Shown here piece after piece: positions 25 to 19,394 of a stretch of DNA of 46,473 nucleotides. A program made the position numbers and the translations under genes. Below the pieces are notes generated by a model. It saw only the letters and a program-made list of their open reading frames with translations. It made no database searches and was not told where the DNA came from. The first letter of the stretch is position 1. Every line of letters starts with the position of its first letter. This DNA is from Candidatus Woesearchaeota archaeon (GTDB lineage Archaea; Nanobdellota; Nanobdellia; Woesearchaeales; JAGVYF01): assembly GCA_016211195.1 (NCBI GenBank), contig JACQSS010000006.1, forward strand, positions 1 through 46,473. Direction: 5' to 3'.

Positions 25-1083
25 TTGGCTCTGCCATCATCGATTATGGATGCAGACATCAATTTGCGGTGCGGCTCATTAGGGAAGTTACCTGTGCTCA
101 GGACGATGCTCCGCGATGCCCTTAACGCAGTCGATCCGCATAGCCTCCTGACGTATGAAGCTGCTGCCGGACTGCCTGCTTTGCGCCGGGCAGTAGCACA
201 TCTGCATGGTGCCGCTGAAGAGAATGTTCTTATAACCTCCTCTGGACAGCAGGCACTGCAGCTTATCCTTGCAGACAGAAAGTCCATCATGATGCAGCAG
301 CCGGCTTATTTTGGCGCTATCCGGTTGGGGAAGCAGAAAAAAAGCATTTGTTTTCATACTCTCGATGAGCTCAAAGAAAAGCTGCAGGAAACCAATCACC
401 CCGTGATATACCTTACATCCAATTTCCACAATCCAACTGGGGAGACGCTCACGTCGCAGGAAAAGCGAGCTATTGCACAGGAAGTGGTAAGACGGAACGG
501 ATTGGTCATCGAAGACAATCCATATGACCAGATCTATTTCACGGACAAGAAACCAGACACGATTTATCAGTATGCGCCGACACATACCATCTACATCAGT
601 AGTTTCTCAAAAATGCTCGCACCAGGGCTCAGGGTGGGTTATATGCTTGCAACCCCAGCACATATTGAACGGATAAAAACCCAGAAGATAACAAATGATC
701 TTTTCACATCAACTCTGAGCCAACACATCTGCCTCTATGCGATGCAACGACCAGCATATCTGACACAGGCAAGGAAAGAATACAGGAAAAGAAGAGATCA
801 TGCACTCGCAGCATTGAACTACTACTTCAAAAACAAAAGAAGCATCTCATGGGCAATCCCCAAGGGGGGCATTTTCATTCAACTGCAGACCCCCATGATG
901 AAGGAATTTGTCCGTGCTGCGCAGGACAATCACGTAATCATGGATGATGACAGGTATTGGTATTGTGACGGGAAGAGCCGGAACCGCACACGGTTGAACT
1001 TTGTACAGCATGACAGAACTGTTCTCTCTGAAGCTATCAGAAGGCTTTCCGTGGCATATGATAAATGTCTGGAGACGAGATAA
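25..1083 (+). CDS. PLP-dependent aminotransferase, class I/II fold
   Basis: Fold-type I landmarks: 'TSNFHNPTGETLT', 'EDNPYDQIYF', and 'SSFSKMLAPGLRVGYM' containing the PLP lysine. ORF begins at TTG 25; ATG at 46 is an alternative start. Confidence 0.9.
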   Translation: MALPSSIMDADINLRCGSLGKLPVLRTMLRDALNAVDPHSLLTYEAAAGLPALRRAVAHLHGAAEENVLITSSGQQALQLILADRKSIMMQQPAYFGAIRLGKQKKSICFHTLDELKEKLQETNHPVIYLTSNFHNPTGETLTSQEKRAIAQEVVRRNGLVIEDNPYDQIYFTDKKPDTIYQYAPTHTIYISSFSKMLAPGLRVGYMLATPAHIERIKTQKITNDLFTSTLSQHICLYAMQRPAYLTQARKEYRKRRDHALAALNYYFKNKRSISWAIPKGGIFIQLQTPMMKEFVRAAQDNHVIMDDDRYWYCDGKSRNRTRLNFVQHDRTVLSEAIRRLSVAYDKCLETR

Positions 1084-1663
1084 TATGACTTATGCATTAC
1101 TGACACCAACACCGAAACAGTGGCTGGACAAGTGCAATATTCCGGATTACGCAAGGCGGCAAGCTGAATCGTGCTTATACCTGGAAAAGCTCTTTGCGCG
1201 GATTGAAAAAGAGCACCAGGAATTACATGACCTCTTTACATATTTGCTTAATGTTCACAAACGGCAGTATGATGACCTTGCTCAAGCGATTGATGTGACG
1301 TATCCGGAAAACAGGCGGTCATTCTACTTCGAGCAACTGTACGCTGCAGCAGGCATTGCATTGGATGGCATTAGTTATATCAGTGACGATATTCTCAGCA
1401 TTCTTGCGATTCAAGCTGTTTCCTATTTACGTGGACATGATCGGTACCGGTTGCTGAAAGAAGACGCCTCGGTGCAAAACACACCCTATCGGTGGATTTG
1501 GAACTGCTTTTATCAGGATGCTGGAAAGAATGCTGAGATGGTGTTTGAGACCATCAGGCGCCTGTACGGACCGACCGGCGATCAACGTATTCATGAGATC
1601 ATAGCGTATGAGGATATGGTCATTCATCGCATCTGGAGGAAACATCATGTCATCGGTCCATGA
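1084..1663 (+). CDS. Hypothetical, predicted largely helical protein
   Basis: ORF in the track starts at 1001, but ATG 1084 directly follows the aminotransferase stop; the ORF end overlaps the start of the next gene. No family recognised. Confidence 0.7.
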
Positions 1664-3629
1664 AGTCCTCATCACGAGCGGTGGCATTATCTCAAAGATT
1701 GACGATGTTCGCTCTCTCGGGAATATGAGCAAGGGCACAACCGGTGCACTCATTGCAGAGGGTTTCCTCACGAGAGGAATCATCGTACATTATGTCTGTG
1801 GGAAGAATACAGAAATGCCATTCAGAAAAGCCCTTGCTCTTGACCCCACCCAGCCAATTGATGACCTGATTAAAAAAGTACGTGACGCCCATGCACAATA
1901 CAACCAATTAAGCCATCTCCTGCATGTGCACATTACTGAGACTTTTAATGAGTATCTGAGTACGGTACAGCGCATACTTCTCACCCGACCAATTGACGCA
2001 GCAATCATGGCAGCAGCTGTTCCGGATTACAGCGTACCAGCATCTCCGGGCAAAATCAGTTCTGACTGTGAAACACTGACCATCCATTGTACAAGGAATC
2101 CAAAAGTTATCTCGCTTATCAAGCAATGGTGTCCCGGGGTTTTCCTTGTGGGCTTCAAACTCCTTGCGGACGCAGAACCTCAGACATTGATTGAAACCGC
2201 ATATCAGCAGGGCATAAAAAATAATGCAAATCTGACTGTAGCAAACACGATCTACCGGGGCGACTTCGGGCAACGTACCACCTATATCATTACACCCGAA
2301 AAAGGTATCACTCCGGTTTCAACGGGAGACATCGCAACAAAACTGACTGAAATGATCTGCCAGCGCGTGTCACAGCGACATTATGCGACGGAATTGACAA
2401 TTGACAAGAAATATCAGTCCACATATTCTGAGGACATCACAAGTTTCAGACAGATAGTGCAAAAGTTTTGGAGACTGAACCTGTTCGAGCCATACGCAGA
2501 AGCAGATGATATGCATTTCGGTTTTGTTGCCATGCGCCTGAAAGAAGGCTTTCTCATCACTGCGAGAGGCAGCAGTAAGAAAGATTTGCCACCGGAGGAC
2601 ATCGTCCGGGTGCGTGGTGTTGACTTTGACCGGCGTGTTGTTCATGTCATATCCGAAGGCAAAAAGGCCTCACTGAATGCGAACGTGGCTGCAATTATTT
2701 TTGCGCAACGGCCGGAGGTCTCCATCATTCTGCACGCGCACATCTTTCCCGGTACTGACAACAAGACAACTGTCGACTATGCACCGGGCACTGAAGAGGA
2801 TATGAGCGAGGTTATGAGTCATCTTCGCGACAAAAACATTGTGGAGGTAGTGAATCATGGGATGATTGCACTGGGAAAAACATCTGAAGATATTATTCAG
2901 CTGCTTGGAGAAGAACACGTGTATAAGCAATGCCCTCTGTGGTACGATGCGGTGTACAACAGGTTCCACCAGTCATCAGACTTTCTTGGGCTGGTCATGC
3001 AAACGGTCAGGAAGGAGGAAGCAATCCTTGATGTCGCTGCAGGTACAGGAGAAGTAACTGCCCATCTGGTGAACAATGGGTATACAACCATAGCCATGGC
3101 AGATAAGCGCTCCAGCATGCTTGCCATTGCACAGCAGAAAGCTCCCGGAAGTCAAGTCTATGAAGCTGACATGACAACCATGAGGCTTGGCAGAAGATTC
3201 AACACAATTGCCATTAGGCAGGCAATCAATTATGCCATGGATTATGCCGGGCTTGTGCAGACCTTCAGGACAATGCACACACATTTACGCCAGAATGGCA
3301 GGCTGATCTTTAACGCGCCGAATGCAGTGGCTGCAGAGTTCAGTGAAAAAATGTTTACCTACGAGATAAATGATTATGTGCTTCATGTGCGCGAAATGAA
3401 TACTGTTGAGAATGGCGTCGTGACGCATACACAGTTGTGCAGGGCAATAAAAAAAGATGGAACCGCCATAGAAAAGATATATGATCTGAATAGGTTTGGC
3501 CTGTTTAGCAAGGCTGACTTTGAAAAAGCATTGCATGAGGCCGGCTTCAGAACTGTTTCTTTCTTCGGAAAAGGGCTGAATACATACACGCCAGAATCAA
3601 AAAGTCTTTATTGTGTCGCGAGGAAGTAG
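1647..3629 (+). CDS. Three-domain fusion: CoaB-like (phosphopantothenoylcysteine synthetase-like), class II aldolase/adducin-like, SAM-dependent methyltransferase
   Basis: N-term 'VLITSGGIISKIDDVRSLGNMSKGTTG...AAIMAAAVPDYSV...GKIS...NPKVISLIK...VGFKLL...ANLTVANT' (CoaB-like). Middle 'LNANVAAIIFAQRPEVSIILHAHIFPG...VEVVNHGMIALGKT' (class II aldolase). C-term 'EEAILDVAAGTGEVTAHLVNNGY...MADKRSSML' (methyltransferase). Confidence 0.88.
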   Translation: MSSVHEVLITSGGIISKIDDVRSLGNMSKGTTGALIAEGFLTRGIIVHYVCGKNTEMPFRKALALDPTQPIDDLIKKVRDAHAQYNQLSHLLHVHITETFNEYLSTVQRILLTRPIDAAIMAAAVPDYSVPASPGKISSDCETLTIHCTRNPKVISLIKQWCPGVFLVGFKLLADAEPQTLIETAYQQGIKNNANLTVANTIYRGDFGQRTTYIITPEKGITPVSTGDIATKLTEMICQRVSQRHYATELTIDKKYQSTYSEDITSFRQIVQKFWRLNLFEPYAEADDMHFGFVAMRLKEGFLITARGSSKKDLPPEDIVRVRGVDFDRRVVHVISEGKKASLNANVAAIIFAQRPEVSIILHAHIFPGTDNKTTVDYAPGTEEDMSEVMSHLRDKNIVEVVNHGMIALGKTSEDIIQLLGEEHVYKQCPLWYDAVYNRFHQSSDFLGLVMQTVRKEEAILDVAAGTGEVTAHLVNNGYTTIAMADKRSSMLAIAQQKAPGSQVYEADMTTMRLGRRFNTIAIRQAINYAMDYAGLVQTFRTMHTHLRQNGRLIFNAPNAVAAEFSEKMFTYEINDYVLHVREMNTVENGVVTHTQLCRAIKKDGTAIEKIYDLNRFGLFSKADFEKALHEAGFRTVSFFGKGLNTYTPESKSLYCVARK

Positions 3630-3679: not shown

Positions 3680-4435
3680 ATGAATGCTGCAAAAAAGGGA
3701 TTATTGTATGTCTTACTCGCGGGAACGCTGGGATCTGCCCAACCGCTGGCAGCCGAAGCATTGCCCGACAAAATCGAGAACTTGCGCAGGGTTACAGTGA
3801 CGGGGTCAGCACAGGTCGAGATCATGCCTGACGAAGCATCGGTCAGACTAAGTGTCAAGACAGAGAAGAAGGACTTACGGGAGGCACAGACAGAGAATGC
3901 CACTCTCGCAACACGCGTCACGCAGGAATTACGCGCTATCGGTGTGGGCGATATACAGACAGTGCATTATTCCCTTGATAAAATGGGTTACTGGGATTCA
4001 AAAACAAACGCGTTTATACAGACCGGTTATCAGGTGCAGAATACTCTCAAAGTCACGACGACAAAATTGGACACGGTCGGATATATTATTGATACGGCCG
4101 TCAAGGCTGGCTCAAATGACATTGATGGCATCGCTTTCGACCTGACGCGTGAGGCCAAGGCAAAGCTGCAATACCAACTGCTTACTGATGCGTGCAGGAA
4201 CGCCCGCGACAAGGCCACGTTGCTTGCCGAAGGAGTTGGTGGCGCTGTCGGAAAAGCCATCACTGTGCAAGAAACAAATTATGATTATGTCCGGCCTCAA
4301 TATGGAATAGCCAAGGCAGCCCGAGACAGTACACCAGTTCAACCGCGTCAGCTTACGGTGAGTGCGCAAGTGCAGGTCCTGTTTGAGATAGATTATGGTC
4401 CGACATGGGCGCTTCCGCCACCCGAGAAAAAATAA
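3680..4435 (+). CDS. SIMPL/DUF541 domain protein with signal peptide
   Basis: Signal peptide MNAAKKGLLYVLLAGTLGSAQPLAAEA, then 'RRVTVTGSAQVEIMPDEASVRLSVKTEKKDLREAQ...ATRVTQELRAIGVGDIQTVHYSLDK'. Confidence 0.85.
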   Translation: MNAAKKGLLYVLLAGTLGSAQPLAAEALPDKIENLRRVTVTGSAQVEIMPDEASVRLSVKTEKKDLREAQTENATLATRVTQELRAIGVGDIQTVHYSLDKMGYWDSKTNAFIQTGYQVQNTLKVTTTKLDTVGYIIDTAVKAGSNDIDGIAFDLTREAKAKLQYQLLTDACRNARDKATLLAEGVGGAVGKAITVQETNYDYVRPQYGIAKAARDSTPVQPRQLTVSAQVQVLFEIDYGPTWALPPPEKK

Positions 4436-4438
4436 GAG

Positions 4439-6331
4439 TTATCTCAGCCGTATCGTGTCCAGATTGCGAGGCGCAGCAGTCTCTATCTTGAACTGCTTAT
4501 GGATTCCGGAAGCGAGGTCAATGCATCGTGACGATTCACCATGGTTGACAATCACTTTCTTTGGCCGTGGAGAGCAGCGATTGACAAAATTGAACAACTC
4601 GCGCCGGTCTGCGTGTGCGGAAATCTCCAAAGCGCGATGAACCTCAAGCTTGAGTTCAACGACTTCCTTTTTTGGACCAACTGGGAAGACAACTTCACGC
4701 AAACCTGCTTTAATGCGCTGTCCCAGTGTTCCTTCTGCCTGATAGCAGGTGAAGACCATTGCATTATGAGGATTATCACCGAGCTGCCGTAGGTATTCCA
4801 TGATAGGGCCACCCTCCAGCATCCCGCTCGTTGCAAGGATAATGCATGAGCCAGTTTCTTCAATGACTTTCTGGCGCTCCTTTGCAGAGCCGATACGGTG
4901 GAAGATCTCAGAGAGGAACGGATTATTGTCCTTATGGAAAATCTGCTTCCGGATAGCGACGTTGAGAAACTCCGGATATGCTGTATGAATAGCTGCAATA
5001 TCCCACAACATGCCATCAATATAAACAGGCACTTTATCAAGCTGGCCAGTCCTGACAAGGGTTTCAATAAGAATCATAATCTCCTGTGCTCTGCCTGATG
5101 CCAGTGCGGGGATAAGGAGTTTTCCGCCGCGTTCAAACGTGGTCTTGATAATCGTCCTCAGATGCTCATCGCTGTCCCGCATTGGTGCAAGGAAGCAGTC
5201 CTTGCCCCCATAGGTTGACTCAATTAACACAGTTTCAAGGCGCGGGAAACGCGTTATGCATCCATCGAGAAGCCTGGTCCTGTTGAATTTCATATCCCCT
5301 GTATACATCATGTTGTGGAGACCATTGCCAATGTGCATATGCGCCATAGACGACCCAAGGATATGCCCAGAGTTATAGAATGTCAACCGGACATCGGGGG
5401 TGATATCAGTCACCTCACCCCAATCAAGGCAGATGGTCTGCTTCACCATGTTTTTAATTTCCTCAGAGGTATACAAAGGTTCCTTACCTTCATTCTTCAT
5501 CATCTTGACATAATCCAGGAGGATGAGTGCAGCGACATCCCGTGTGGGAGCTGTCATGTAGATCGGGCCTTTGTATCCCATCTTGATGAGATATGGAATC
5601 ATCCCCGTGTGGTCGAAATGTGCATGGGTGATAATGACTGCATCAACCTGATTCAGATCAAACTCAGGCGCCTCAAAGAAAGGGAATGCGTCCTTTTCTG
5701 ATGAGACATTAATACCGCAATCCATGAGGATCCGGGATTCGGATGTCTGGAGGAAAAGGCATGACCTGCCGACTTCACGACCCGAGCCAAGATACGAAAT
5801 GCGTATCCATTCATTCTTTTTCTCACGCATCCACCCATCATAAATGCGATGGCCAACCCGATCGAGGAACCGCCTACGCTCATCGCTGTTCTGATAGAGT
5901 ACTGCACGGATGTTCTCAATCAGTTGCGACCTGATGGGGGGTGTGCGTTTGATGATAGGGACCCAGAATGTCTTTGCCTTGATCTCTTGCAGGACAGACC
6001 CCATCTTCCCGATTGCAAGGCCCGGCTTTTCTGCGTGGATAATGACACGTGACCGCTTGCTGTCAAAGATAATATCTGAAACGCCGGCTTCAGCGGGGAT
6101 TGTTTCGCGAATGAGGATCTCTGCTTTCTCCGGATCGATGGTCAACGCAGCATCTGCACGCACTTCAATGCGTTTTTTCATTTGCTCGACCACTGCACGG
6201 ATAGTCCCTTGATTATCAAGGAAGTAGTCCCTGTCTTTAGTGTAGAGGACTATGTTTGCTGCTTCAAAGGCCGTATCGGATATTTTTCCGTCCGGCAACA
6301 GCTTCAGTATTTCTTTTAAGATGTCTGCCAT
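4439..6331 (-). CDS. KH / metallo-beta-lactamase / beta-CASP ribonuclease, archaeal CPSF1-like transcription termination factor (FttA/aCPSF1)
   Basis: N-terminal KH-like region, MBL motif 'HAHFDHTGMIPYL', beta-CASP features 'ESTYGGKD', 'ASGRAQEIMILIETL', 'ATSGMLEGGPIMEYLRQLG', 'SAHADRREL'. Confidence 0.95.
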   Translation of the reverse strand: MADILKEILKLLPDGKISDTAFEAANIVLYTKDRDYFLDNQGTIRAVVEQMKKRIEVRADAALTIDPEKAEILIRETIPAEAGVSDIIFDSKRSRVIIHAEKPGLAIGKMGSVLQEIKAKTFWVPIIKRTPPIRSQLIENIRAVLYQNSDERRRFLDRVGHRIYDGWMREKKNEWIRISYLGSGREVGRSCLFLQTSESRILMDCGINVSSEKDAFPFFEAPEFDLNQVDAVIITHAHFDHTGMIPYLIKMGYKGPIYMTAPTRDVAALILLDYVKMMKNEGKEPLYTSEEIKNMVKQTICLDWGEVTDITPDVRLTFYNSGHILGSSMAHMHIGNGLHNMMYTGDMKFNRTRLLDGCITRFPRLETVLIESTYGGKDCFLAPMRDSDEHLRTIIKTTFERGGKLLIPALASGRAQEIMILIETLVRTGQLDKVPVYIDGMLWDIAAIHTAYPEFLNVAIRKQIFHKDNNPFLSEIFHRIGSAKERQKVIEETGSCIILATSGMLEGGPIMEYLRQLGDNPHNAMVFTCYQAEGTLGQRIKAGLREVVFPVGPKKEVVELKLEVHRALEISAHADRRELFNFVNRCSPRPKKVIVNHGESSRCIDLASGIHKQFKIETAAPRNLDTIRLR

Positions 6332-7081: not shown

Positions 7082-8311
7082 CTATCCAACAGCACCCCGC
7101 ACGCGCATCCGGGCCATTGCATGGGCAGCTGCATCCTTTACTGCAGAGGAGGCAGACTCATCTTTGACAATGGCTGAAAGCGTCTCATATGCAAGCCTGT
7201 CACCAAGCTCACCCAACACGTTGATGGCCACAAGGTCATGGTCCTGATATGCGAAACGAAGCAGCTCCTTGACCACCACCGGAGACTGGACGCCGACAGC
7301 AAGAAGCAGCTCACGGGCAGGCTGCGCAGGGTCCTGCAACAGGGGATTCCGTACACCCAACATAGCAGCCACTGCGGCTTCGGGATTATTCTTTGCCAGC
7401 AACGCCACCGCACGTGCTTTTTCCGGGTGAATCAGCAAAATACCCGTCACGCGGTTGAGGATTGGTTCTGAAGGTTCAATGCGCAACCAGATTTCATCTG
7501 CATACGGACCAAGATTCGGATCAGTCAGGATATCCAGCAGCCGAGGTATTGTATCTAGAGGGTCAACTGGAGCAAGACGAGCAAGAACATCGACAACCGG
7601 TTCCTTATCCGGCGCCTCTTTCAGGGTGGCGATCAGTGAAGGAAACATTGCCCTCGTTGTCGAGCTACTCAACAACCCTATCTCTACGAGGGATTCTGCG
7701 ACACTAGACCGGACACCTTTATTACTGTCTTTCAAGGCAGTTATGAGTTTCGTGACAGCCACCCCGGGAGTCACAGCGCCAAAGAATTCCCGCACACGGG
7801 TTACAAATTTTTCAACTTCGGGATACCGACCGGGGCCTGTGACAGTCATCAGCGAATCACGATACTCCCGGCCAATAAGCCGCAAAGAATCCGCGGCTGC
7901 TGCACGGATATCAGGCAACTCATGATCCAATCCTTTGACAAGATCTGACAAGCTGTCTGCTTTTACCTCGATTTCAAGGTCAACCTGAGGCACGATAAGA
8001 GAGACTTGTTTAAAGAGATGGTATTGATCCTTTGCCCAAGGAATCAGCTCGTTCAATGGTTCTTCCCTGATTGCATCAATATAGCGTGAAGCCACGTCTT
8101 TACCAAAGGATTCCAGTTCAGGCTTCGCAGCCCGCAAAAACCGGGCTTGCTCAGAGTTGTATAATGCAAATAACTCATCTGATGTCTTTGTATCCAATTC
8201 TTCACGTCCAAATCCAAGACCCACAAGGTCATCCTTTATCTTCTGATCATTGCATGCAGCCCATGTGACCTGTGCTGCGAGCAGAAAGATGATAACCATT
8301 GCAATTTTCAT
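7082..8311 (-). CDS. Secreted HEAT-repeat protein
   Basis: Signal peptide MKIAMVIIFLLAAQVTWAA; repeated HEAT-like segments ('LVKGLDHELPDIRAAAADSLRLIG', 'LITALKDSNKGVRSSVAESLVEIG', 'NVLGELGDRLAYETLSAIVKDE'). N-term resembles that of the upstream kinase-like gene. Confidence 0.8.
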   Translation of the reverse strand: MKIAMVIIFLLAAQVTWAACNDQKIKDDLVGLGFGREELDTKTSDELFALYNSEQARFLRAAKPELESFGKDVASRYIDAIREEPLNELIPWAKDQYHLFKQVSLIVPQVDLEIEVKADSLSDLVKGLDHELPDIRAAAADSLRLIGREYRDSLMTVTGPGRYPEVEKFVTRVREFFGAVTPGVAVTKLITALKDSNKGVRSSVAESLVEIGLLSSSTTRAMFPSLIATLKEAPDKEPVVDVLARLAPVDPLDTIPRLLDILTDPNLGPYADEIWLRIEPSEPILNRVTGILLIHPEKARAVALLAKNNPEAAVAAMLGVRNPLLQDPAQPARELLLAVGVQSPVVVKELLRFAYQDHDLVAINVLGELGDRLAYETLSAIVKDESASSAVKDAAAHAMARMRVRGAVG

Positions 8312-10266
8312 ATTGGGCAGCCCTCCGACGGTTTCTCTTCTTTGACTTTTTTCGCGATTTTCTCAAGCGCTGCAACAAGTTGCCGATTCTGTGCGGCATC
8401 TGTCTTGAGCGTTGCGACAGCGGTTGCAACTTGCGATTTTATAGTACCTGTCGGATCAAGAGCAGCTTCAATATCTATACCACCAAGGTGGCCATCCCTT
8501 AAAGGGGAACCCCGTGCTTCCTGATGCCGTTGCATTTCCTTTCTGATCTCCCCAGCACGATACAGGGCATCCTGCGATTTTTCACGTAAGATCAGTTCGT
8601 CTAAGGTCAATGTCAGCTTGGTTGCCAGCTGCCGCTGCTGGTCAAAAAGTGCGCTGGGGTCCTTTTTTGCTTTGAGCGCTTGCTCTAACTGGAGATTAAG
8701 TCGTTTCAGTTGCGAAAGGAAGGTATCTGCCTGTGTTTTGGGCAATATTTTCCCCTCACGCAGCTGCTGCTTGTAGCTGAGCGCATCCCGGACATCCTGA
8801 TAAGAGAGCAGTGTCTTCCCCAATTCTGCAAAGACCCGAGGACTTGCTACAGAGCCATATAATGTATTAAACTTGTCCATCATTTCAAGATGATGATACT
8901 TACGTGAGACGTCACTAAAGCCAAACAGGCCACTCACCTTCCGATACATGTCTTCCTTAAGCTTATCAAAAAAGAACCGCTCTTTGGGAAATTCTTTGGA
9001 AAGGACGTCCTGCGCAAGTCTATACCCGATGGTATCAGCAAGGATTTCTTCTATGCTTTCTGTCTCTGTGCCAAAGTCTCCCTTACGCCGGCCTCCCTGA
9101 CGGAAAAAGACATGCGATGCTTCATGGAATAATGTTGACATGGCCTCATAGATGTTCGACATCTTTTCATGGAGCTCAATATTGCGCAAGCCAGCATTGC
9201 CCAGTTCTCCACTTTCTGCACCCAAGTCCTTCACTTCGAGCCTTGGCAAATCAATGCCAAAGAGGGGCTGGAAGAAAGTAGCGAGCAATTCTTTATAGAC
9301 ACCTGCTGCCTTCTCCCGTGTTTGTGGCGTGAGTTCTTGGGGCAGAAGCTGATTGAGGTTACTGGCAAGCGCTTCCCGCGATTTCCGTGCAAGCTTATTG
9401 AATTCAGCCCGCAATTTTGTTGCGTCAGTATGCGCAACATCAAGCTGCGGCCTGCCTGCAAAGTCGCGCAGCACTAAAGTGCCGTCAGGCCGTACAAGGA
9501 TGTTATCTGGGTGGATATCTCCATGGAAAATGCCTGCCTTATTGGCTTCCTGCAGCAATTCTTCAAGAATCCTGAACTGTTCCCTGTATTTGGCAGCATC
9601 GCCCGGCCCAAATGCACGCAAGGGTTCACCTTCAACAAAATCAGAGAGCTGCACTTTCCTTGGCTTGCCATCAATGACCAATTCAGTCTCGCCAAAGTAG
9701 CGTTGCAGATGATCCCTGAATCGTCTGTTGGCAGGTTCATTCAGGAATGTCTCAAGTTTCTCGTGTGCACTTGCACTCTTTTCTGCAACATCTGCAGGAA
9801 CTTTTGGCTTGATAAGCTTGACTGCGACATCTGCCGTCCCGATTTTCATGCGATACACGTCTGCGGTTGTGCCTGTCCCAAGGCGTTTCTGTTTCAGAAT
9901 GGCGGCTGGGTCTGCTGCGATGGCATCCTTGACTACCTTTGTCCGTTTAGCAACATCCGCGTTCTCGGCAGCAACTTTTGCCTTCAGTGCAGTCTCATAC
10001 AATTGACGCTGTAACTCCGCTTGCAAGACCGCATCTCCAGCCGCTTCCTTTGCAGCAAAGCTCCTGATTGTCTCTTTCTGCTGTTCAAGAAATTGGTTGT
10101 CACGGGAAGTCCAGAGACGGCGGACTTCTTCATTACTGAGTGTGCTTAAGCGCTCTTGCGTGAGAAATCCACGTTCGAGCAAGTCTTTCTTCATCACATC
10201 CATAGTCGGGCAGGCTGCCTGCGCAAAAGGCATGAGCAACAGTATGAGAAGAAGTTGTTTCAGCAT
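8308..10266 (-). CDS. Secreted protein kinase-like (ABC1/RIO/APH-type fold) plus HExxH metallopeptidase-like fusion
   Basis: Signal peptide MLKQLLLILLLMPFAQAA; kinase motifs 'RLGTGTTADVYRMKIGTADVAVKLIKP', 'GIFHGDIHPDNILVRPDGTLVLRDFAG'; zincin-like 'MSTLFHEASHVFF...TESIEEILADTIGYRLAQ'. Confidence 0.82.
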   Translation of the reverse strand: MLKQLLLILLLMPFAQAACPTMDVMKKDLLERGFLTQERLSTLSNEEVRRLWTSRDNQFLEQQKETIRSFAAKEAAGDAVLQAELQRQLYETALKAKVAAENADVAKRTKVVKDAIAADPAAILKQKRLGTGTTADVYRMKIGTADVAVKLIKPKVPADVAEKSASAHEKLETFLNEPANRRFRDHLQRYFGETELVIDGKPRKVQLSDFVEGEPLRAFGPGDAAKYREQFRILEELLQEANKAGIFHGDIHPDNILVRPDGTLVLRDFAGRPQLDVAHTDATKLRAEFNKLARKSREALASNLNQLLPQELTPQTREKAAGVYKELLATFFQPLFGIDLPRLEVKDLGAESGELGNAGLRNIELHEKMSNIYEAMSTLFHEASHVFFRQGGRRKGDFGTETESIEEILADTIGYRLAQDVLSKEFPKERFFFDKLKEDMYRKVSGLFGFSDVSRKYHHLEMMDKFNTLYGSVASPRVFAELGKTLLSYQDVRDALSYKQQLREGKILPKTQADTFLSQLKRLNLQLEQALKAKKDPSALFDQQRQLATKLTLTLDELILREKSQDALYRAGEIRKEMQRHQEARGSPLRDGHLGGIDIEAALDPTGTIKSQVATAVATLKTDAAQNRQLVAALEKIAKKVKEEKPSEGCPI

Positions 10267-13200
10267 TGTGCTGCCTCCAATGGTTTTTGGGCTGCTTCTG
10301 CAAAGCGACCCTTCACCTCAGGCGTGTCGACAATTTTAACTGCTTTTTCCCTGACAGGGTCCAGCGCCTTCTTAACATCTTCCAGTTTCGCATCTATGTC
10401 TGCCTTTCTCTCCGGCAGTTTATCTGCCTGTTTCTGGAGCATGTCAAGGAGCTGGTCAGCCAGTCTCTCCAGTTCGGCCCGTTTCGCATCCTTCGTAATT
10501 GAAGTAAAGTCTGTCTTTTCTCCGGAGACTATTTTCTTGACGTCTTCGGCAATATTGATGCGTTGCTTTTCCACTTGATGGAAAAGGGCATCCTCAATGC
10601 CATATTTCCCTTCTAGACTCATGAGTGCCAGCTTATCCAATGCAAAGTCCTTAGCTGCCTGCTCAGAGACAACACTTTCCCGCTTCACTTTCCCCCCTTC
10701 AATGCATGGTCCCTTGCAGAGGACTATCTTTGTATCAGGTACAGCTTGTGCGCCCTTGACAAGATCAACCAACCCTTTGAGGAAGCTCCTCTGGTCGCTG
10801 CCTCTCAGCTTATATGAAGCAATGCCATACTGATTGGTTTTCAGGTTCTCAGGAGTGCACGGGCCCTTGCAGATGATGCCATCCTGCTCATAGAGCCCGA
10901 ATTCACCCGGCTTTCGGATAATATTACCAGCTGCATCGACACGAGCGAGATAATAGCGCTCTTTCGGCTGGTCAGCAGAGTATTCTTTTCCAAATGTTGC
11001 GTCCATGTCTGCCTTGCTGAGTGATTCCAGCATTTCAAAGAGACGCCCTTCCAGTTCACGGCGCGTCAGCTTGCCTTGTTTCGCCCGTTCCAGCATGCTG
11101 GCGCCCAACTCAGGCAGCACAATATCATCCAATGTGCGAATGTCTTTTGCCTCAAGGAATCTTGCCAGTTCCGGATATTTCGTCTTCACATCAGACGACT
11201 GAAGGTCAAGGTCACGCCAGACTTGATTATATTCCTCATGCCGTTTCAACTCACTCATCAGCGCATCCCTTGCTGTCGCCTTCTGTTCAGGTGACGCTGC
11301 AGATAATTTCTCCACCAAACCAGTAACTTTAGGCAGGACATTCATGTCTATTTTTGGCAGATGAGTTTTGATGGGGTCAGTCATGGTGACTGGCACTTCT
11401 ACCCGATGGCCTTCTACTGCTTTGACCACTGCATCATCCAATGTACCCTTTACATGTTTGCCCCTATCACGCAATTCCTTCAGCCCGTCAGGCGCCAACG
11501 CGATATCTGTAACACTGATGAGATTATCCGGTGTCACTTTGCCCCCGTCCAGAACCATCTGCTCCTTGGCACGTTGTTTGGTGGACGTTGCAAGTTCGTC
11601 ACTGACCTTGTTGAGGGAGAAATGAGACTTGAGTCCTTCGGATTTTATCAGATTGATAAAGTCAGCAGTGGCTCGTGCAACGCCCACCGTGATACTGGGA
11701 TGTGTTGGCATTTCAATGATAACCTTTCCTTCTTCACGTCTGATTCTGAATTCTTTACCGCCAACACGCACAACTTCCTCTCCTTTGGCATTTCTGCTTA
11801 TGGGCACTTCTTTGCCGGCCAAAATCACATTCCTTCCCTTGACAGCCACCTCAACATCGCCGATAATAGTCAACCCCTTTGCTTCAACATGCTGAGCGTA
11901 TTCCTTCATGATAGTGAGCATCATATCCTTCGGGTTTGCTCCTTCACGGAAAATGATAGCGAGTTCATCTCCGCCAGTACGGACAAGCTTTCCGTTATCT
12001 CCGAGATTCCTTTCAATAATATCGAGCAGTGACCGCAATAATGCATCTGCTACCTTATTACCCCGTTGCCGACCTGTCGTGCCAAAGAAATTCAGATCAA
12101 TATTGGCTACCTGCACTTTCTCTCCCTTCATAATCCTATCCTGAATAAAGAGATTTGCAGTATTGATGCCGGCAAGAAAGTCCTTGCCTTCAATGTTCTG
12201 CGTAGCGAGTTTCTCTACCACAGCGTCACGTACTTTTTCGAGTTCTACAGCCTTAGCGGCGAATTCAGGCGTTCCCGGCGTGAGCTTTTGCAATTCACCG
12301 ACATGTTTATTGTATTCGGCCACTGCCCTCTGGACACCTCGGTCTACGATATCCTGCCGGAAGAACTCATAATCTTCCTTCAGACTCTCAACACCCCGTG
12401 AGCGGGTAATGTAATCTTCAACCATTGCATCATGTTTCACAACTGCACTCTTTGCGTTTGCCTTGGCGGTATTTGCCTGCTCAGCAGTTGCCTTGGCCGG
12501 GTCTGTTATTCCCCCAATCTCACGAAACTGCGCCACCTTCCCGGCAGAGAGGGCATTCTGATTAATGTCATTAAGGGACTTTATTGTCCCATCGCTAACC
12601 CCTTCAGCAAGGCCAATGTAAGTATTGAATTCTTCTGGTCTCAGTTTATAGGAACTTACTAAGGGGTCATTTATCACTTGCTCACGGAATGCCCGCTCTG
12701 TGGCTTTTCTGACTACCTTCTCCAGCATCCCAAGCTCAAGGTTTTTCCCGGTCATTGAATAGGTTTTTCCAGCATCGTGATTGACAGTTATCTCGCCATC
12801 ACCTTTTATCTCGATAACCCGGATGCCATCACGTACCTGAACGCTGCCACGTCCGCCAAGCTCTTGGAGAACAAGGCGTTCAAGATTCCGTGCAGTGGCT
12901 TCAAGATAGGCATTCCCCCCTTCATGGCCAAACTTGCTGTTGATTTGCTTGAATGCCTGGATATCGATATGCGCTACGCTTACTTTGTCTCCGGCCCTGA
13001 TCGTATTGGCAAGATATTCATTACGCGCATCGATGTTGTTAATGCTCGTGAAACTTTTGAAGGACTGGTCTTGCAGAGCACGCTGAACCTCAAGTGATGC
13101 TTTAATCTCAGGAACCTCCACTTTCACTTCTCCCCCCAACTTCTTATTCGCTTGGTCATATTGCTCCTTCGTGATTTCTCCCCGGCCCAATTCGAAATCA

Positions 13201-16200
13201 AGCAGGTCTGATGTGCGGGCGTTGGCATCTTTGCCCAGTTCCTCAACAGATTTCTCCCCAGGCCGTGCCTCTTCACCAGCCGTCCTTTCCGCAAGTCGTG
13301 TCTCTACTTCATTGAGGCGCTTCAGCTTCTCCAGCTTTTCTTTTGCATTCGCCAATTGCCCCGGCAAGTCTCGGAGTTCCTGCTCAAGCCGTGCCTTCAT
13401 CTCCTGTGCAAAGACATCCTTCGGATTAACTTTCAACATCGCTTCTGCAGTTGCCAATGAGTCTTTGATTTCCTGCGTCTGCACTTGTTCACGTGCTTTC
13501 AGTTGCCTGTCCATTGCATCCAATTCAGAAGCCTTATTCTTCAGCCGCAAAGTCTCTGCTCTTGCTTGTTCAATAGCCGATTTTCCTCCAGCACCGGTGA
13601 TGATGTCTAGTTCACGCACTTCCGCCAGCTTAATGTCACGCTCCGCAGTAAGCAAATCCTTAACAGCCGGGTCTTTCCCGACAGTCAATTCATTGTTCTT
13701 ATGAGAGGCATCAACAAAATCACGCATGGTTTTCGTCAAGTCCTGTGCAGCTGTTTTCAATGCACTTTCGGTCTCCTTGGTCGCTGACTCCTTGTACTTC
13801 TTCTCAGCAGCGTCCAGTGCATTTTTTCTTATAGAGAGTTCAAGAGCAGCCTTCTGTGCGTCAAAGAATGCCGCTGCCTTTGCTTGTGTTTCTGCATCAA
13901 ACTTGCCTTTTTTGAACGTCGTCTCCATGATGCCACCCAACTCCCTACTCAACTCGATGTATGCAGGGTCATTAGGTGCTATACCGCCACGACGCAATTT
14001 CTCCACTTTGGACCTCCATTGAACCAACTCAGGCGCTTCCGGCAGGTCTTTAATGTCCAATGTTTTCTTGTACATGTATGAATTGGCCGTTGCCACAACG
14101 TTGTTTGCAAGGTGGAATATGCCTGCGGTCGCTACGCCCTGTGCAACACGCGTTGCAATATCCTCAACGGTAATGTCTTTTATCGACTGATGTCCAGTCA
14201 CGACATCCGCAAACAAGCCACCCTGCACAAGACTTTTGGCAGAGCGCATGAGTTCCAATGCCTCCTGGCGTGCACCTTCAGTCACTGGCCTTAGGCTGTA
14301 CTTTTCTGCAAGCTTTGCAAACTCTTTATGGGCCGCGGGCTTCCAGAAGGGCATGCCGCCAGCACCCATCATGAACAGGACACTGTGCACATAATCTTCA
14401 GGCTTGGACTCACGGCCTTCTGCAGTCGCCATGACGTGCTCGAAGACTGCACCTTCAACGCCCATCCGGACGCCATAATCCATTGTGGCCAAGATGCCGT
14501 TCCGTATTGCAGGATTGCTTAATGGAGTAAGGAAAGGAACTTTTGCCACGGTTTCAAGCAGACCCCCAGCATAATATGCAGTGGCACCGGCAGCAGCTTC
14601 TGCGATCTTATGTGCAACTGCCCCTGCAACCAGTGTTGCCACAAGGGTTTCAGTATTCAATGTCTGTTCCACAAATCCTTTCTGCAGACCCTCCAGATCA
14701 AATGCTTTTGACTTATCGGAAAATGTTGTTGGGTCAAAGGCAAACCGTGCTTCGGCGAAAATCTGCAACGCCGTGCTGCACTGCTCGGCTGTCTTCCCCA
14801 GTTTCTGGCAGATGGACGCAATCTGGTCTTTAGAGACACCTTGACGTATCTGGTCTGTGGTCACGCCATAGGTTATAGCGAGCTCTGTCGCCAGATTATA
14901 GATGTGTTCGCGTTCCCGTGCTTCCTGTACCATCCTGTCGGTGAATGCAAAGCGTTCCTGCATCTCGGGAGAGAGCACTGCACGGACAGAAGTCAGCCAG
15001 TCCGGACCCATATAGATTGTCTTTCCCTTGCCCAAGGCAGAATCTGCATATCCATACAACGCTTCCTGTGCCATGTCTGCCAGCAGCCGCTCTGCCCTGA
15101 CACCATCTCTAGAGAGCATGTCCTTGAAGGCGGTTTGCGCTGCAGGGTCTGTTATCTTCGTATCAGCAACATCCTTGATGTACCCGTTCATCTCCACAAT
15201 AAGAATGTCTTTCTTGCCCTTTAGCTCCTGTCCCAGACGGACCATTTCCTCCAGCTCATCCTTTTCCCCCGCACTTAAATCTCGCTGCTTCTTGAGCGCT
15301 TCCAATTCTTCTTTCCTTTTTTCCGTGCGACTGAGCAACATTTCTGTCTCCTTCAGCGAGCTTTTCATGCCAGTGAGTGTTTCACCAATCGGCTGGCCGA
15401 TGGTATCCTTCAGTTGCGGCTTGTCTTTGAGTAGCGCTTGCGAAGCAAACACCCGGTCAAGCATGTCCTTCTCTTTCTGAAGCTGTGCCTCAAGAGCTGG
15501 ATCTTTGCCACGCCCCTTGAACCAAAGAAGCTCATTTAATGTATCCACCCGTCCTTGCATTTCCTGTAACCGCTTTACCAGCTGCTCCGGTGTAAGCTTG
15601 GCCAGTTCTTCTCTCAGGTCATCTTCCTTCTTCCTACCAGAGTAATAATCACCAATATCAACAGCCCCATATTTCGCGCAAGCCGTGAAGTCACCTGTCG
15701 GCACTGCCTTGGCTTTAAACTCGGGTGGTAAGCTAGCAAAGATAGCATCCATTCTTCCCTTGGTCTGCTTCAGTGCATAGACTGCATCATTGTATTTTGC
15801 AGAAGCATACATCAGGTCAATCTTCGTATGGGTGTCATCTGTCAACGCTGCCTTTGCATTGTCAAAAGCAGTCTTTAATGGAGCGAGATTGCCGCAGGCG
15901 GACAGATATTGAGCCGCCAACTGCTCAAACTCCTTCAAGAGCTGCTCTGCATTTGCCTCGCAGTCTTTCTCATCCGTTTGTCCGTCACAGTCATCATCCA
16001 TGCCATTTTCGCATTTCTCTTTGGCATCGGGATGGACATTTGCATCTGCATCGTTGCAATCGCCAACGGCCTTGGTGATGGTGGGACACTCCTGCCTACA
16101 GGTCTTGAGGTCAGCACAGTCCTTTGTCGCATAGCTATCCCCATCCTGATCCCATACGCAACCGATGCAGCCGGGCTCGTCCACTTCGCCATTACAGTCA

Positions 16201-19200
16201 TCATCTATTTTGTTCCCACAGAACTCAGGGCTGTCACTGTCATCAGTTTTCCCATCGCAGTTGTCATCCTTTTTGTTGCCGCACATTTCCCTCATGGCAG
16301 GATTGATGGCCTTGTCATCATCATTGCAATCCGGCCCTGCATAGATACCAGGACATTGCTTGATGCAAGTGGCCGATGAAAGGCATGCTGAGGTAACAAA
16401 TTTATCCCCATCAATATCCCCAAGGCAGACTGGCTGAGCACAGGTCCCTTTTACCCGTTGCGTCACATCTCCCACCGTCACAAAACCCTTGTCTTCATCA
16501 TCAATAAATCCATCACAGTCATCATCTATCTTATTGCCACAGATGTCTACTGCCCCCGGGTTGACAGTCAAATCGCTATCATCGCAATCGCTTTTCTTGG
16601 CTGCCTGTTCAGGGCAGCTTGTCCTGCATTTTTCATTGGCAAGGCAAGCTGCTGTTGCATAGCCATCCTTGTCCCGGTCTCCTGGGCAAAATTCTTCCAT
16701 CTCAAATCCGAGTCGTTTCCTGCCAATGAAATGCTGGAATTTACCCTCGTCAATATTGACACAGTGGCCCACCAGACACATCTCTCCTGCCAGGCACTGT
16801 TTGACATTAACATTATTATCATTACAATCCGGGCTAAGCAGGGCATTGCTCGGCAGTGTTGCACTGCATTTCCCGTCAACACAATAGCCCCCTCGGCACT
16901 CCTGATGAGCAGTACAGGTTTGTCCATCGCCCTTTTCTCCCCCCTTTGCCGGTGGCTGTGGAGATACAGTCTTCTTTTGGTTCATGCAACTGATCATACA
17001 GCGCACGTCCCCAAGGCAGCGCGCAGATGGAACACCATCCTTATCATCGTCACGGCAGGCGCACGCCGAATGCTCTGCACAATAAGGCCTCTTCACCATC
17101 ACTCCATCCGGCTCGCCTTCCCAGAGAGGCACCTCCCGCTCTTTCACGACCTCATAATCTAGGCATTGCATATAGCCAGATTCTTGATGCGAAAATAATC
17201 CGGCATAAATCGGGAGAAGATCACCAATCTTCAGAGGGTGGCTTTGCGGTGTCGTCCCTTCTTCGGGATAGGGTATAAACAAAGTTGAGCCAGCCACTAA
17301 TCGAGGCACGAAATGGAAAGACCCAGCACATGCAGAAAGGGATTCTTGGTCTGGACGCTTGCCCATTTCCTGCGCCAGCTCCACGAAGAGGGATTTTGTT
17401 TCTGTCTCTGGTAACCCTTTGAACATGCCAGGTAGATATAATAGGGAAGGAACAGTCGATTCGTGCGGCGCTTTTGCCGGCAATGTCTGCTTAGGCAATT
17501 TATTGATGATCCCCATACCTCTATCAATGAGCAGTCGCCCCCAATCGGTACTTGTGTACGTCTGGGTATCGACGTATGATCGCGATGTCGGTTGGATAAT
17601 GACTTTTGTGAACCACCACCCAGCCTTTCTCGCTTTCGCCATCCTGTACTTAATCTCAGCGAGGGTATCCCCATAGATGGTACTTGTTTCTGTGAATGGA
17701 GGGACCGGATCTTCTTGAGCACAATAACGCGTTACCTTGCCCTGGGCGTCTGTGTGTTGACCCCACTGAACACATTTCCACCCAGCCGGAATACAACGGC
17801 TAGTTATTCCTCCCCCGATTTTCCATGCCATTTTCCAGTCGGCAACAGAAATCGTGCAGTACCGTTTCATCTCATTTTCAAAGGTAAAGATGGGCACCAC
17901 ATTCTTGTCTGCCTTCAGCACATAGGCGTTCGCCAATGGAGACACATCATGCACTTCAGCGACGCTTCCGCCGATGAGAGTATAGTATTCATTGAAGCGC
18001 AGGAAGGAGTCCTTGAATAGCAGTGAATAAAGCTTGGTGACTCCTTGCAGGACCTCTTCCTGGTCTGCCCGTGCTTCACTAAAGAGCTCAACTGGTTGTG
18101 CCCGTTCGGCAACAAGAGCCTCTGCAGTGAGAGAAGTGAGACGGTACACATCATTTGCATTCCACCCAGCGACCTGCTCTTGATATTTTCCGGATGCATC
18201 CTTAACAAATGTATAAACAAACCGTTTGCCATACCGCACATTTTGGACATTAATGGACTGGGCAAGGAGGTACCGGGCGAAATAGGACTGGAGGCGATAC
18301 TGCACAAAGGTTTGGAGCTGATTGACTTGCTTGGTTGACACGGTGGGTATATTTTTGGAAATGGCATCGGGGTTTTGCTCGAGCTCACTGAAATGCTTTA
18401 CTGCTTGAAGACTTGCTCCCGCCAACACAGCATCCTGAATCTGCAATGGTTCCTTAGCGAGAAGAGCAGCGACGGTTTCTGATTCAGTGTTAAACCACAT
18501 CACGTACGCGAGACGTGCTGGAAAAGAGAGTTGATAATAAAACGCCTCGACCTCGGCAGCCAGCACCACCCCTTTCTCCTTGGCCGTCGTGAGCAATGAG
18601 CGCATTTTCGGTATTGTCCCCAAGGGGATAATCAGTCCGTCATACTGGAGCTGCGTTGTTTCGGGGGCTGTTGCGTCCAGTGCACGGCGATAACCCTGAA
18701 GATCACGCAGGCGTCTGAGCGTCTCCTCATTTGCCTGCTGTCCTGCGTCCGGAGGATATTTCTGCAGAACAGCCCGCTTGATGGCATTCTCCAACTCTAC
18801 CGTGATACCTGCGTCAAACAAACGGTATGCAGTGAAATAGGATGCTGCCAGACGTGTCTTTTTTGATGCTTCCTGGGTGGCAAGAGCAAATGTGGCATAG
18901 TCATATGCCCGGACAGTATAACCTATAGCAGTCTGCAACGGCCGTGACATCATCCTAGTTTCCCACACATTCCAATCCAGCGTGCTTCTCGCTTGCTGTA
19001 TTGAGGAAAATGCCTGTTCCAGTGCAGTTTTTGCCTTTGCATATTTTTGTCCATATTCTGCATATGTTTGTACATAATTAAATGCGTTCTGTGCCGTAAG
19101 GAGTTTGATTTTTGCCTCACTTGATGGAGCAACAGCTGACCCGCATTTGGCACATCCACCAGCCCAGGCCAACGCGTTGTCAACTTCATCGATAGCATAC

Positions 19201-19394
19201 TTCATGCCAAGCGTCGCCTCATCACGCAAGGCAGTACTTGCCTTGGACTCTAACACCTTAACCTCTTGCGCAGTCTGGCGTCCTGTTGGCTCGGGGCCAG
19301 TCAGAAAGATAAGAAGTACTGCGAGTGCCACAGCAGACAGCACAATAACATCCCTCTTTTTCTGTCGTCTTGTTGCGTGAGTCATTGGAGACAT
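10260..19394 (-). CDS. Giant (3044 aa) membrane-anchored protein with MopE-like repeats, coiled-coil regions and two GGDEF-like domains
   Basis: N-term RRQKKRD + hydrophobic 'VIVLSAVALAVLLIFLTG'; 'CGNKIDDDCDGFIDDED'-type repeats; GGDEF-like 'VAHIDIQAFKQINSKFGHEGGNAYLEAT...IKGDGEITV' and 'VANIDLNFFG...KVADALLRSL...LVRTGGDELAIIF...SITVGVA'. Start could also be ATG at 19385. Confidence 0.88.
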   Translation of the reverse strand: MSPMTHATRRQKKRDVIVLSAVALAVLLIFLTGPEPTGRQTAQEVKVLESKASTALRDEATLGMKYAIDEVDNALAWAGGCAKCGSAVAPSSEAKIKLLTAQNAFNYVQTYAEYGQKYAKAKTALEQAFSSIQQARSTLDWNVWETRMMSRPLQTAIGYTVRAYDYATFALATQEASKKTRLAASYFTAYRLFDAGITVELENAIKRAVLQKYPPDAGQQANEETLRRLRDLQGYRRALDATAPETTQLQYDGLIIPLGTIPKMRSLLTTAKEKGVVLAAEVEAFYYQLSFPARLAYVMWFNTESETVAALLAKEPLQIQDAVLAGASLQAVKHFSELEQNPDAISKNIPTVSTKQVNQLQTFVQYRLQSYFARYLLAQSINVQNVRYGKRFVYTFVKDASGKYQEQVAGWNANDVYRLTSLTAEALVAERAQPVELFSEARADQEEVLQGVTKLYSLLFKDSFLRFNEYYTLIGGSVAEVHDVSPLANAYVLKADKNVVPIFTFENEMKRYCTISVADWKMAWKIGGGITSRCIPAGWKCVQWGQHTDAQGKVTRYCAQEDPVPPFTETSTIYGDTLAEIKYRMAKARKAGWWFTKVIIQPTSRSYVDTQTYTSTDWGRLLIDRGMGIINKLPKQTLPAKAPHESTVPSLLYLPGMFKGLPETETKSLFVELAQEMGKRPDQESLSACAGSFHFVPRLVAGSTLFIPYPEEGTTPQSHPLKIGDLLPIYAGLFSHQESGYMQCLDYEVVKEREVPLWEGEPDGVMVKRPYCAEHSACACRDDDKDGVPSARCLGDVRCMISCMNQKKTVSPQPPAKGGEKGDGQTCTAHQECRGGYCVDGKCSATLPSNALLSPDCNDNNVNVKQCLAGEMCLVGHCVNIDEGKFQHFIGRKRLGFEMEEFCPGDRDKDGYATAACLANEKCRTSCPEQAAKKSDCDDSDLTVNPGAVDICGNKIDDDCDGFIDDEDKGFVTVGDVTQRVKGTCAQPVCLGDIDGDKFVTSACLSSATCIKQCPGIYAGPDCNDDDKAINPAMREMCGNKKDDNCDGKTDDSDSPEFCGNKIDDDCNGEVDEPGCIGCVWDQDGDSYATKDCADLKTCRQECPTITKAVGDCNDADANVHPDAKEKCENGMDDDCDGQTDEKDCEANAEQLLKEFEQLAAQYLSACGNLAPLKTAFDNAKAALTDDTHTKIDLMYASAKYNDAVYALKQTKGRMDAIFASLPPEFKAKAVPTGDFTACAKYGAVDIGDYYSGRKKEDDLREELAKLTPEQLVKRLQEMQGRVDTLNELLWFKGRGKDPALEAQLQKEKDMLDRVFASQALLKDKPQLKDTIGQPIGETLTGMKSSLKETEMLLSRTEKRKEELEALKKQRDLSAGEKDELEEMVRLGQELKGKKDILIVEMNGYIKDVADTKITDPAAQTAFKDMLSRDGVRAERLLADMAQEALYGYADSALGKGKTIYMGPDWLTSVRAVLSPEMQERFAFTDRMVQEAREREHIYNLATELAITYGVTTDQIRQGVSKDQIASICQKLGKTAEQCSTALQIFAEARFAFDPTTFSDKSKAFDLEGLQKGFVEQTLNTETLVATLVAGAVAHKIAEAAAGATAYYAGGLLETVAKVPFLTPLSNPAIRNGILATMDYGVRMGVEGAVFEHVMATAEGRESKPEDYVHSVLFMMGAGGMPFWKPAAHKEFAKLAEKYSLRPVTEGARQEALELMRSAKSLVQGGLFADVVTGHQSIKDITVEDIATRVAQGVATAGIFHLANNVVATANSYMYKKTLDIKDLPEAPELVQWRSKVEKLRRGGIAPNDPAYIELSRELGGIMETTFKKGKFDAETQAKAAAFFDAQKAALELSIRKNALDAAEKKYKESATKETESALKTAAQDLTKTMRDFVDASHKNNELTVGKDPAVKDLLTAERDIKLAEVRELDIITGAGGKSAIEQARAETLRLKNKASELDAMDRQLKAREQVQTQEIKDSLATAEAMLKVNPKDVFAQEMKARLEQELRDLPGQLANAKEKLEKLKRLNEVETRLAERTAGEEARPGEKSVEELGKDANARTSDLLDFELGRGEITKEQYDQANKKLGGEVKVEVPEIKASLEVQRALQDQSFKSFTSINNIDARNEYLANTIRAGDKVSVAHIDIQAFKQINSKFGHEGGNAYLEATARNLERLVLQELGGRGSVQVRDGIRVIEIKGDGEITVNHDAGKTYSMTGKNLELGMLEKVVRKATERAFREQVINDPLVSSYKLRPEEFNTYIGLAEGVSDGTIKSLNDINQNALSAGKVAQFREIGGITDPAKATAEQANTAKANAKSAVVKHDAMVEDYITRSRGVESLKEDYEFFRQDIVDRGVQRAVAEYNKHVGELQKLTPGTPEFAAKAVELEKVRDAVVEKLATQNIEGKDFLAGINTANLFIQDRIMKGEKVQVANIDLNFFGTTGRQRGNKVADALLRSLLDIIERNLGDNGKLVRTGGDELAIIFREGANPKDMMLTIMKEYAQHVEAKGLTIIGDVEVAVKGRNVILAGKEVPISRNAKGEEVVRVGGKEFRIRREEGKVIIEMPTHPSITVGVARATADFINLIKSEGLKSHFSLNKVSDELATSTKQRAKEQMVLDGGKVTPDNLISVTDIALAPDGLKELRDRGKHVKGTLDDAVVKAVEGHRVEVPVTMTDPIKTHLPKIDMNVLPKVTGLVEKLSAASPEQKATARDALMSELKRHEEYNQVWRDLDLQSSDVKTKYPELARFLEAKDIRTLDDIVLPELGASMLERAKQGKLTRRELEGRLFEMLESLSKADMDATFGKEYSADQPKERYYLARVDAAGNIIRKPGEFGLYEQDGIICKGPCTPENLKTNQYGIASYKLRGSDQRSFLKGLVDLVKGAQAVPDTKIVLCKGPCIEGGKVKRESVVSEQAAKDFALDKLALMSLEGKYGIEDALFHQVEKQRINIAEDVKKIVSGEKTDFTSITKDAKRAELERLADQLLDMLQKQADKLPERKADIDAKLEDVKKALDPVREKAVKIVDTPEVKGRFAEAAQKPLEAAQC
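15955..17060 (-). repeat. Tandem MopE-like Asp/Cys-rich repeats inside the giant protein
   Basis: Four recurrences of C-x-N-(K/G)-x-D-D-(D/N)-C-(D/N)-G: CENGMDDDCDGQTDEKD, CGNKIDDDCNGEVDEPG, CGNKKDDNCDGKTDDSD, CGNKIDDDCDGFIDDED, interspersed with 'DCNDxDxxVxP' and 'DxDGD/DKDGY' units. Confidence 0.85.

Follow-up and report, generated by a model that had tools for sequence, protein, structure and literature searches.

How an archaeon uses a single protein that joins a CoaB-like domain, a class II aldolase-like domain and a methyltransferase domain, and whether such a protein belongs to coenzyme A (CoA) metabolism at all, is the question raised by this locus. The window, the whole stretch of 46,473 nucleotides that was analysed, is contig C65 of a 1.11-Mb archaeal genome that is 91% complete. 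The frame of the fusion is open and uninterrupted from 1608 to 3629 on the forward strand (673 codons), and its likely start is the ATG at 1647, which renders a protein of 660 aa whose gene shares 17 nt with the preceding one. The fusion is the third gene of a tight operon read in one direction throughout, where an aminotransferase gene is followed after 1 nt by the gene of a 192-aa protein, which in turn overlaps the fusion (Table 1). As the contig starts at base 1, the operon is visible only from there and the N-terminus of the aminotransferase may be longer than annotated. The aminotransferase was recognized by Pfam (Aminotran_1_2, 96.7 bits), with LysN as the best PDB match (2egy, E 8e-34). 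The Pfam scan of the 192-aa protein gave nothing above cut-off, and this protein is missing from the related G269 and G017 loci.

Table 1. Coordinates of the operon, of the domains and residues of the fusion, and of related loci (aa positions refer to the 660-aa protein)
Feature	Position	Strand	Basis or remark
Fold-type I PLP aminotransferase, LysN / alpha-aminoadipate type	46..1083	+	345 aa from ATG 46; Pfam, PDB
192-aa protein, no recognized family	1085..1663	+	between aminotransferase and fusion
CoaB-aldolase-methyltransferase fusion, 660 aa	1647..3629	+	Pfam, NCBIfam, PDB matches; the main finding
CoaB (phosphopantothenate-cysteine ligase-like) domain, aa 1-240	1647..2366	+	2gk4; conserved Asn26, Lys136
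Class II aldolase (FucA/AraD-like) domain, ~aa 275-418	2469..2900	+	Pfam Aldolase_II; FucA profile match
Asn344, aligned to FucA catalytic Glu73	2676..2678	+	alignment
HxH metal pair His363/His365	2733..2741	+	alignment
Third metal ligand His404	2856-2858	+	alignment
Class I SAM methyltransferase domain, aa 429-660	2931..3629	+	Pfam Methyltransf_25
[RK]QA[IV]NY..D motif	~3219-3242	+	common to window, G017 and phage methyltransferases
Amidohydrolase loci	L123:7709-8545, L071:6891-7724, L072:2984-3682, L108:5346-6278, L025:10164-11003, L063:7565-8449, L067:4149-5006		
CoaBCs without CoaC flap Cys	L028:2396-3592, L025:8849-10105, L071:5713-6894, L123:5437-6630		alignment

A sequence-only reading of this stretch had described three enzyme-like domains in one ORF, and all three Pfam profiles do exceed their cut-offs (positions in 673-aa numbering): DFP (PF04127), by which the CoaB fold is recognized, with 93.8 bits (cut-off 22; best stretch aa 105-225), Aldolase_II with 40.9 bits (cut-off 22.2; aa 305-378) and Methyltransf_25 with 39.7 bits (cut-off 27; aa 473-564). 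Every equivalog cut-off of NCBIfam was missed. The same reading did not recognize the combination, and we likewise found no annotation of the architecture in Pfam or NCBIfam and no paper on the three-domain fusion in PMC literature searches; neither the operon nor the recurrent association with CoA genes turned up in these sources. Each single domain is of a known kind, and their combination in one protein is real, rare and, as far as these sources go, new. An AlphaFold model of the 660-aa protein from a 3-row alignment (pLDDT 42.5) was too poor for fold searches.

The closest family and PDB match to the N-terminal domain is the stand-alone Streptococcus-type CoaB (TIGR02114/PRK06732; 2gk4, E 9e-20), with which it shares the GGxxxxIDxVRxxxN and KISS motifs and the C-terminal AN. 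It differs from that family in carrying two extra domains, in coming from a genome that also has a bifunctional CoaBC, and in scores well under the cut-offs (TIGR02114, coaB_strep, 115 against 217 bits; PRK06732, 130 against 265 bits), as is also the case for TIGR00521 (83 against 220 bits). The latter profile describes CoaBC (Dfp, bifunctional PPCS/PPCDC), which has the CoaB fold in common with the window protein but adds a CoaC (flavoprotein) domain that the window protein lacks; the CoaC-CoaB pair of G310 is itself fused to an aldolase of the same type. Asn26 (1722-1724) and Lys136 (2052-2054), which correspond to the catalytic Asn210 and Lys289 of the E. coli ligase, are invariant across the aligned fused and stand-alone CoaBs. 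In the CoaB tree, the fusions of the window and G269 group with the stand-alone CoaBs of G274 and G275 (support 100/99), of which that of G274 lies immediately behind a CoaC gene, and the fusions of G310 and G311 pair together on the CoaBC side. The CoaB-aldolase fusion is therefore found on two CoaB lineages, the stand-alone type (window/G269) and the CoaBC type (G310/G311), and the strongly supported branches require the fused label to change at least twice, so that the tree suggests the fusion probably arose more than once. Phage branches are long in the trees, and the phage placement is unsure.

The central domain matches FucA through its family profile (1fua, E 6e-9) and has the metal histidines and the overall profile in common with the class II aldolases FucA, AraD and MtnB (PF00596). 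Every one of the eight aligned members, the phage protein among them, has the HxH pair, and the third-ligand xHG is found in all seven whose C-terminus is present, at identities of 15-60% among members. The position of the catalytic Glu73 of FucA holds Glu in G310 and G311, Asp in G280, G338, G005, G275 and G453, and Asn in the window, G017, G269 and the phage, so that, of the two features to which the earlier reading had pointed, the metal-binding histidines stand (His363, His365 and His404) and the catalytic Glu does not. The domain also departs from FucA in several phosphate-site residues (PSSE is ASLN, and the phosphate-binding motifs GN and SS read GF and SL), in having ~20 residues fewer between the second and third metal His, and in its fusion to CoaB. 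With the zinc site kept and the FucA-type base lost, the alignment suggests that the domain does not have to act on a sugar phosphate. In the aldolase tree, none of the fused or operonic members belongs to the main clade formed by stand-alone, MtnB-like aldolases, and the tree leaves their origin unplaced.

The C-terminal SAM-binding GTG motif that had been noted earlier lies within LDVAAGTGE, in agreement with the Methyltransf_25 match. The closest PDB relatives of this domain include the N-methyltransferases 5bsz, DesVI (3bxo) and TylM1 (3pfg), and its nearest named relatives are daptide and deoxy-sugar N-methyltransferases (NF041820). Unlike the daptide methyltransferase, the window domain scores 60 bits against a curated cut-off of 175 bits and has its own [RK]QA[IV]NY motif; it is 38% identical to the methyltransferase of G017 and 21-22% identical to that of the phage (E 6e-9). 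With a LysN-like aminotransferase in the operon and neither sugar nor RiPP genes seen nearby, we rejected a pathway to a deoxy-sugar or a daptide.

Independent records show the parts of the fusion again, in an unchanged order. In G017, from another family of the same order (L025/L027), the genes run amidohydrolase, CoaBC, aminotransferase, aldolase and methyltransferase, the aldolase protein (286 aa) retaining CoaB only as its C-terminal end; the aldolase is ~40% and the aminotransferase 36% identical to those of the window, and the methyltransferase comparison is given above (~38%). G269 (L059) carries Nudix, aminotransferase (40% identical to that of the window) and CoaB-aldolase genes up to the contig end, and the 485-kb phage LR745208.1 encodes a CoaB-aldolase (371 aa) and, behind it, a methyltransferase that bears the [RK]QA[IV]NY motif. 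BLAST against phages and plasmids gave no further three-domain match and no second phage with the set, and in the scan of genome contigs the record of G017 was the sole match. In both G017 (L027) and the phage, the aldolase stop and the methyltransferase start overlap by 4 nt (ATGA), so the loss of one stop suffices for a fusion of the window type. The sequence-only reading had named ORF joining as one thing that would undo its interpretation, and the window does come from a contig of a draft genome; with the order repeated in genomes independent of this one and in a phage, with the split genes overlapping as ATGA and with a clean 660-codon frame, an assembly or joining artefact is extremely improbable. 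Judging from the copy in the phage, the CoaB-aldolase-methyltransferase set seems to act as a portable unit. Near these phage genes, a proteasome/Ntn-hydrolase-like protein was seen by eye only (L024:14182-14730).

An order-wide profile search (359 genomes), extended by a second search and by inspection of loci to proteins in which the aldolase follows a Rossmann-like N-terminal domain, placed the same aldolase type repeatedly among CoA genes. The operon of G310 runs Nudix, CoaC-CoaB-aldolase (617 aa), GNAT and CoaD-CoaE, and that of G311 Nudix, PanD, CoaB-aldolase, GNAT and CoaD-CoaE. The Rossmann-aldolase proteins share an operon with an amidohydrolase in G275, and with an amidohydrolase and CoaBC in G280, G338 and G453, the last being a genome of another order in which the amidohydrolase, aldolase and CoaBC genes show 4-nt overlaps. 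The N-terminal domain of the G280, G338, G005, G275 and G453 proteins is weakly CoaB-like (HHalign probability 32%, 65 columns). The suggestion that the fusion serves an unfamiliar pathway rather than standard CoA synthesis is thus not supported in that form: its CoaB groups among stand-alone CoaBs, one of them behind CoaC, and aldolases of this kind recurrently share a protein or an operon with CoaB/CoaBC, CoaD-CoaE and PanD.

Several other arrangements were observed around these genes. An amidohydrolase (PF04909 where scanned) often adjoins the fusion-related CoaB/CoaBC lineage in PanB-less genomes, and may act in the same pathway as a lactonase or decarboxylase. In G005, two tandem Rossmann-aldolase proteins (L107:3352-4431 and 4428-5642) adjoin a PhoU/AbrB-like regulator, which also neighbours CoaBC operons in other genomes. 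In the PanB-less genomes, the CoaBCs show no CoaC flap Cys (xGEGKAK for ACGxxGxGR) and have PTMH or PAMH for PAMN/PSMN. The missing Cys of these 'clade B' CoaBCs was dropped as a clue to altered chemistry, as the alignment with M. smegmatis CoaBC (6tgv) also shows none evident. CoaBC and pantoate kinase (PoK) form a single ORF in G354 (L064:5986-8013) and G352 (L040:592-2592), within PanB-(PanD)-CoaBC-PoK-(PPS) clusters, and a HAD hydrolase and a class II aldolase form one in G269 (L109:4094-5416) and G356 (L110:4129-5424).

PanB was found in 41 of the 359 genomes of the order, and in 35 of the 52 with a CoaB match. All nine carriers of a CoaB- or Rossmann-aldolase protein in the order are CoaB-positive and PanB-negative, whereas PanB is present in 35 of the 43 other CoaB-positive genomes, a difference computed with relatedness accounted for only crudely (Fisher p=6.6e-6 by genome; by family, carriers in 0/7 PanB-positive versus 8/10 PanB-negative families, p=0.002). 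A further eight CoaB-positive, PanB-negative genomes have no such aldolase-bearing protein. The window genome has the separate CoaBC (C14) for which the sequence-only reading had advised looking, together with CoaD-CoaE (C66). PanB, PanC, PanE, PoK, PPS, PanD, and type III and PRK-type PanK were not detected in it, PoK, PPS and PanD having been searched by tblastn only and the PanK search covering type III and the PRK type. Downstream CoA synthesis is therefore kept, with the tested sources of 4'-phosphopantothenate undetected. A PanE-like protein is present in G269 and G310, and PanD in G311. In canonical genomes of the order (G354, G010), PanB, CoaBC, PoK and PPS lie in or near one cluster, the archaeal PanB pathway (PanB-PanD-CoaBC-PoK-PPS clusters) being a full set there; the carriers hold only its downstream half, PanB is in none of them, and the putative functional replacement has another fold.

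Our data suggest that the fusion has some link to CoA metabolism, probably as a non-standard feed into CoA synthesis, which we regard as somewhat likely, and there is about an even chance, judged from gene content and alignments, that it is a fused, operon-encoded piece of an unrecognized CoA-precursor module on the pantoate/phosphopantothenate side. This reading draws on the set being found again in a huge phage and two further Woesearchaeales-like genomes, on the two CoaB lineages that bear the fusion, on the same aldolase type in operons with CoaBC and amidohydrolase, CoaD-CoaE and PanD, on the nine of nine PanB-negative carriers and the undetected upstream enzymes of the window genome, and on the position of the fused and operonic aldolases outside the main stand-alone MtnB-like clade. 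In such a module the CoaB domain, with its ligase residues kept, would activate a (phospho)pantothenate-type carboxylate with CTP and ligate cysteine, and the aminotransferase, aldolase-like and methyltransferase parts would make or remodel the acid for ligation, most plausibly its pantoate half. The aminotransferase could supply a branched 2-oxo acid, e.g., 2-oxoisovalerate from valine; the zinc domain could hold this 2-oxo acid and form or cleave the adjacent C-C bond, for example by adding a one-carbon unit to give ketopantoate, normally the step of PanB; and the methyltransferase could alkylate an intermediate. Ketopantoate-type chemistry is a working guess that we consider unlikely to be correct. 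Equally speculative is the broader proposal that PanB-less Woesearchaeota-like archaea and a huge phage obtain the pantoate/phosphopantothenate half of CoA by a new route: a zinc class II aldolase-type enzyme physically coupled to CoaB would act, with aminotransferase, methyltransferase and sometimes amidohydrolase, in place of PanB and of the downstream steps that form pantothenate. Making pantoate here would also call for a reductase, a kinase and a beta-alanine ligase, and the known ones were not found in the window genome, which argues against its having the whole de novo route to pantothenate; a plain replacement of PanB is weakened by the same inventory, as PanC, PanE, PoK, PPS and PanD are likewise not found. 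Salvage of pantothenate or phosphopantothenate is the simpler explanation for the window genome. Some small DPANN archaea apparently rely on their hosts for a CoA precursor (PMC6650551). Also counting against a CoA-precursor module are the Asn at the Glu73 position in the window group and the changed phosphate-site residues, the truncated CoaB part of G017 and the weakly CoaB-like N-terminal domains of the Rossmann-aldolase proteins, an aminotransferase and methyltransferase near other CoA genes in G017 only, the presence of CoaBC and CoaDE with the aldolase absent in G221 (98% complete), and the draft state of the genomes (71-97% completeness).

The alternatives differ in which of these observations they leave unexplained. 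A CoA-independent small-molecule pathway, as the sequence-only reading had it, in which the CoaB-like domain joins another acid and amine and its partners tailor the product, would account for the second, complete CoaBC of the window genome, for the low CoaB equivalog scores and for a phage with the set but no adjacent CoaBC; we nevertheless judge it unlikely, as stand-alone CoaBs, one adjoining CoaC and amidohydrolase genes, are the tree neighbours of the fused CoaB, and sister aldolases lie within CoA operons. The loss of the FucA base (Asn344), the broken Ser-Ser phosphate motif and the shortened stretch between HxH and the third His would instead be expected of an adducin-like, non-catalytic domain with a scaffolding or regulatory role, in a protein that is mainly CoaB plus methyltransferase, with pantothenate salvaged, and the lack of detected pantothenate synthesis genes fits this too. 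The HxH pair is nevertheless invariant in eight members and the third His wherever the C-terminus is intact, despite 15-60% identity, and other members hold Glu or Asp at the Glu73 position, so a scaffold seems quite doubtful.

Salvage of methionine/SAM by-products, with an aldolase-like domain resembling MtnB or a methylthioribulose/deoxyribulose-phosphate aldolase, a methionine aminotransferase, a SAM methyltransferase and a CoaB fused by chance, has in its favour that Aldolase_II includes MtnB and that stand-alone relatives in G034 and G265 adjoin an MtnA-like gene. MtnB (human APIP) also has a neutral residue at the Glu73 position, and LysN-type aminotransferases are of broad specificity. 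This very unlikely explanation was set aside on the evidence of the aldolase tree, in which the stand-alone clade with the MtnA-linked G034 protein (100/99) includes none of the fused and operonic aldolases. Phosphate-site residues are lost, MtnA is not near the fused or operonic aldolases (none was found when sought at the window locus), the MtnB equivalog TIGR03328 gives 19 against 137 bits, and the repeated CoaB linkage is left unexplained. Returning to the CoA-precursor module, CoA is needed by essentially all cells, and with the downstream enzymes kept, the tested upstream ones missing and unexplained proteins sharing an ORF or an operon with the downstream ones, the fusion and operon partners are concrete candidate genes for the missing upstream step.

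Elsewhere in the window, a 3044-aa ORF on the reverse strand (10260-19394) combines MopE-type metal-binding repeats with two GGDEF-domain stretches, a domain that is uncommon in archaea, and its neighbour on the same strand (8308-10266) has a weak ABC1/kinase-like domain.
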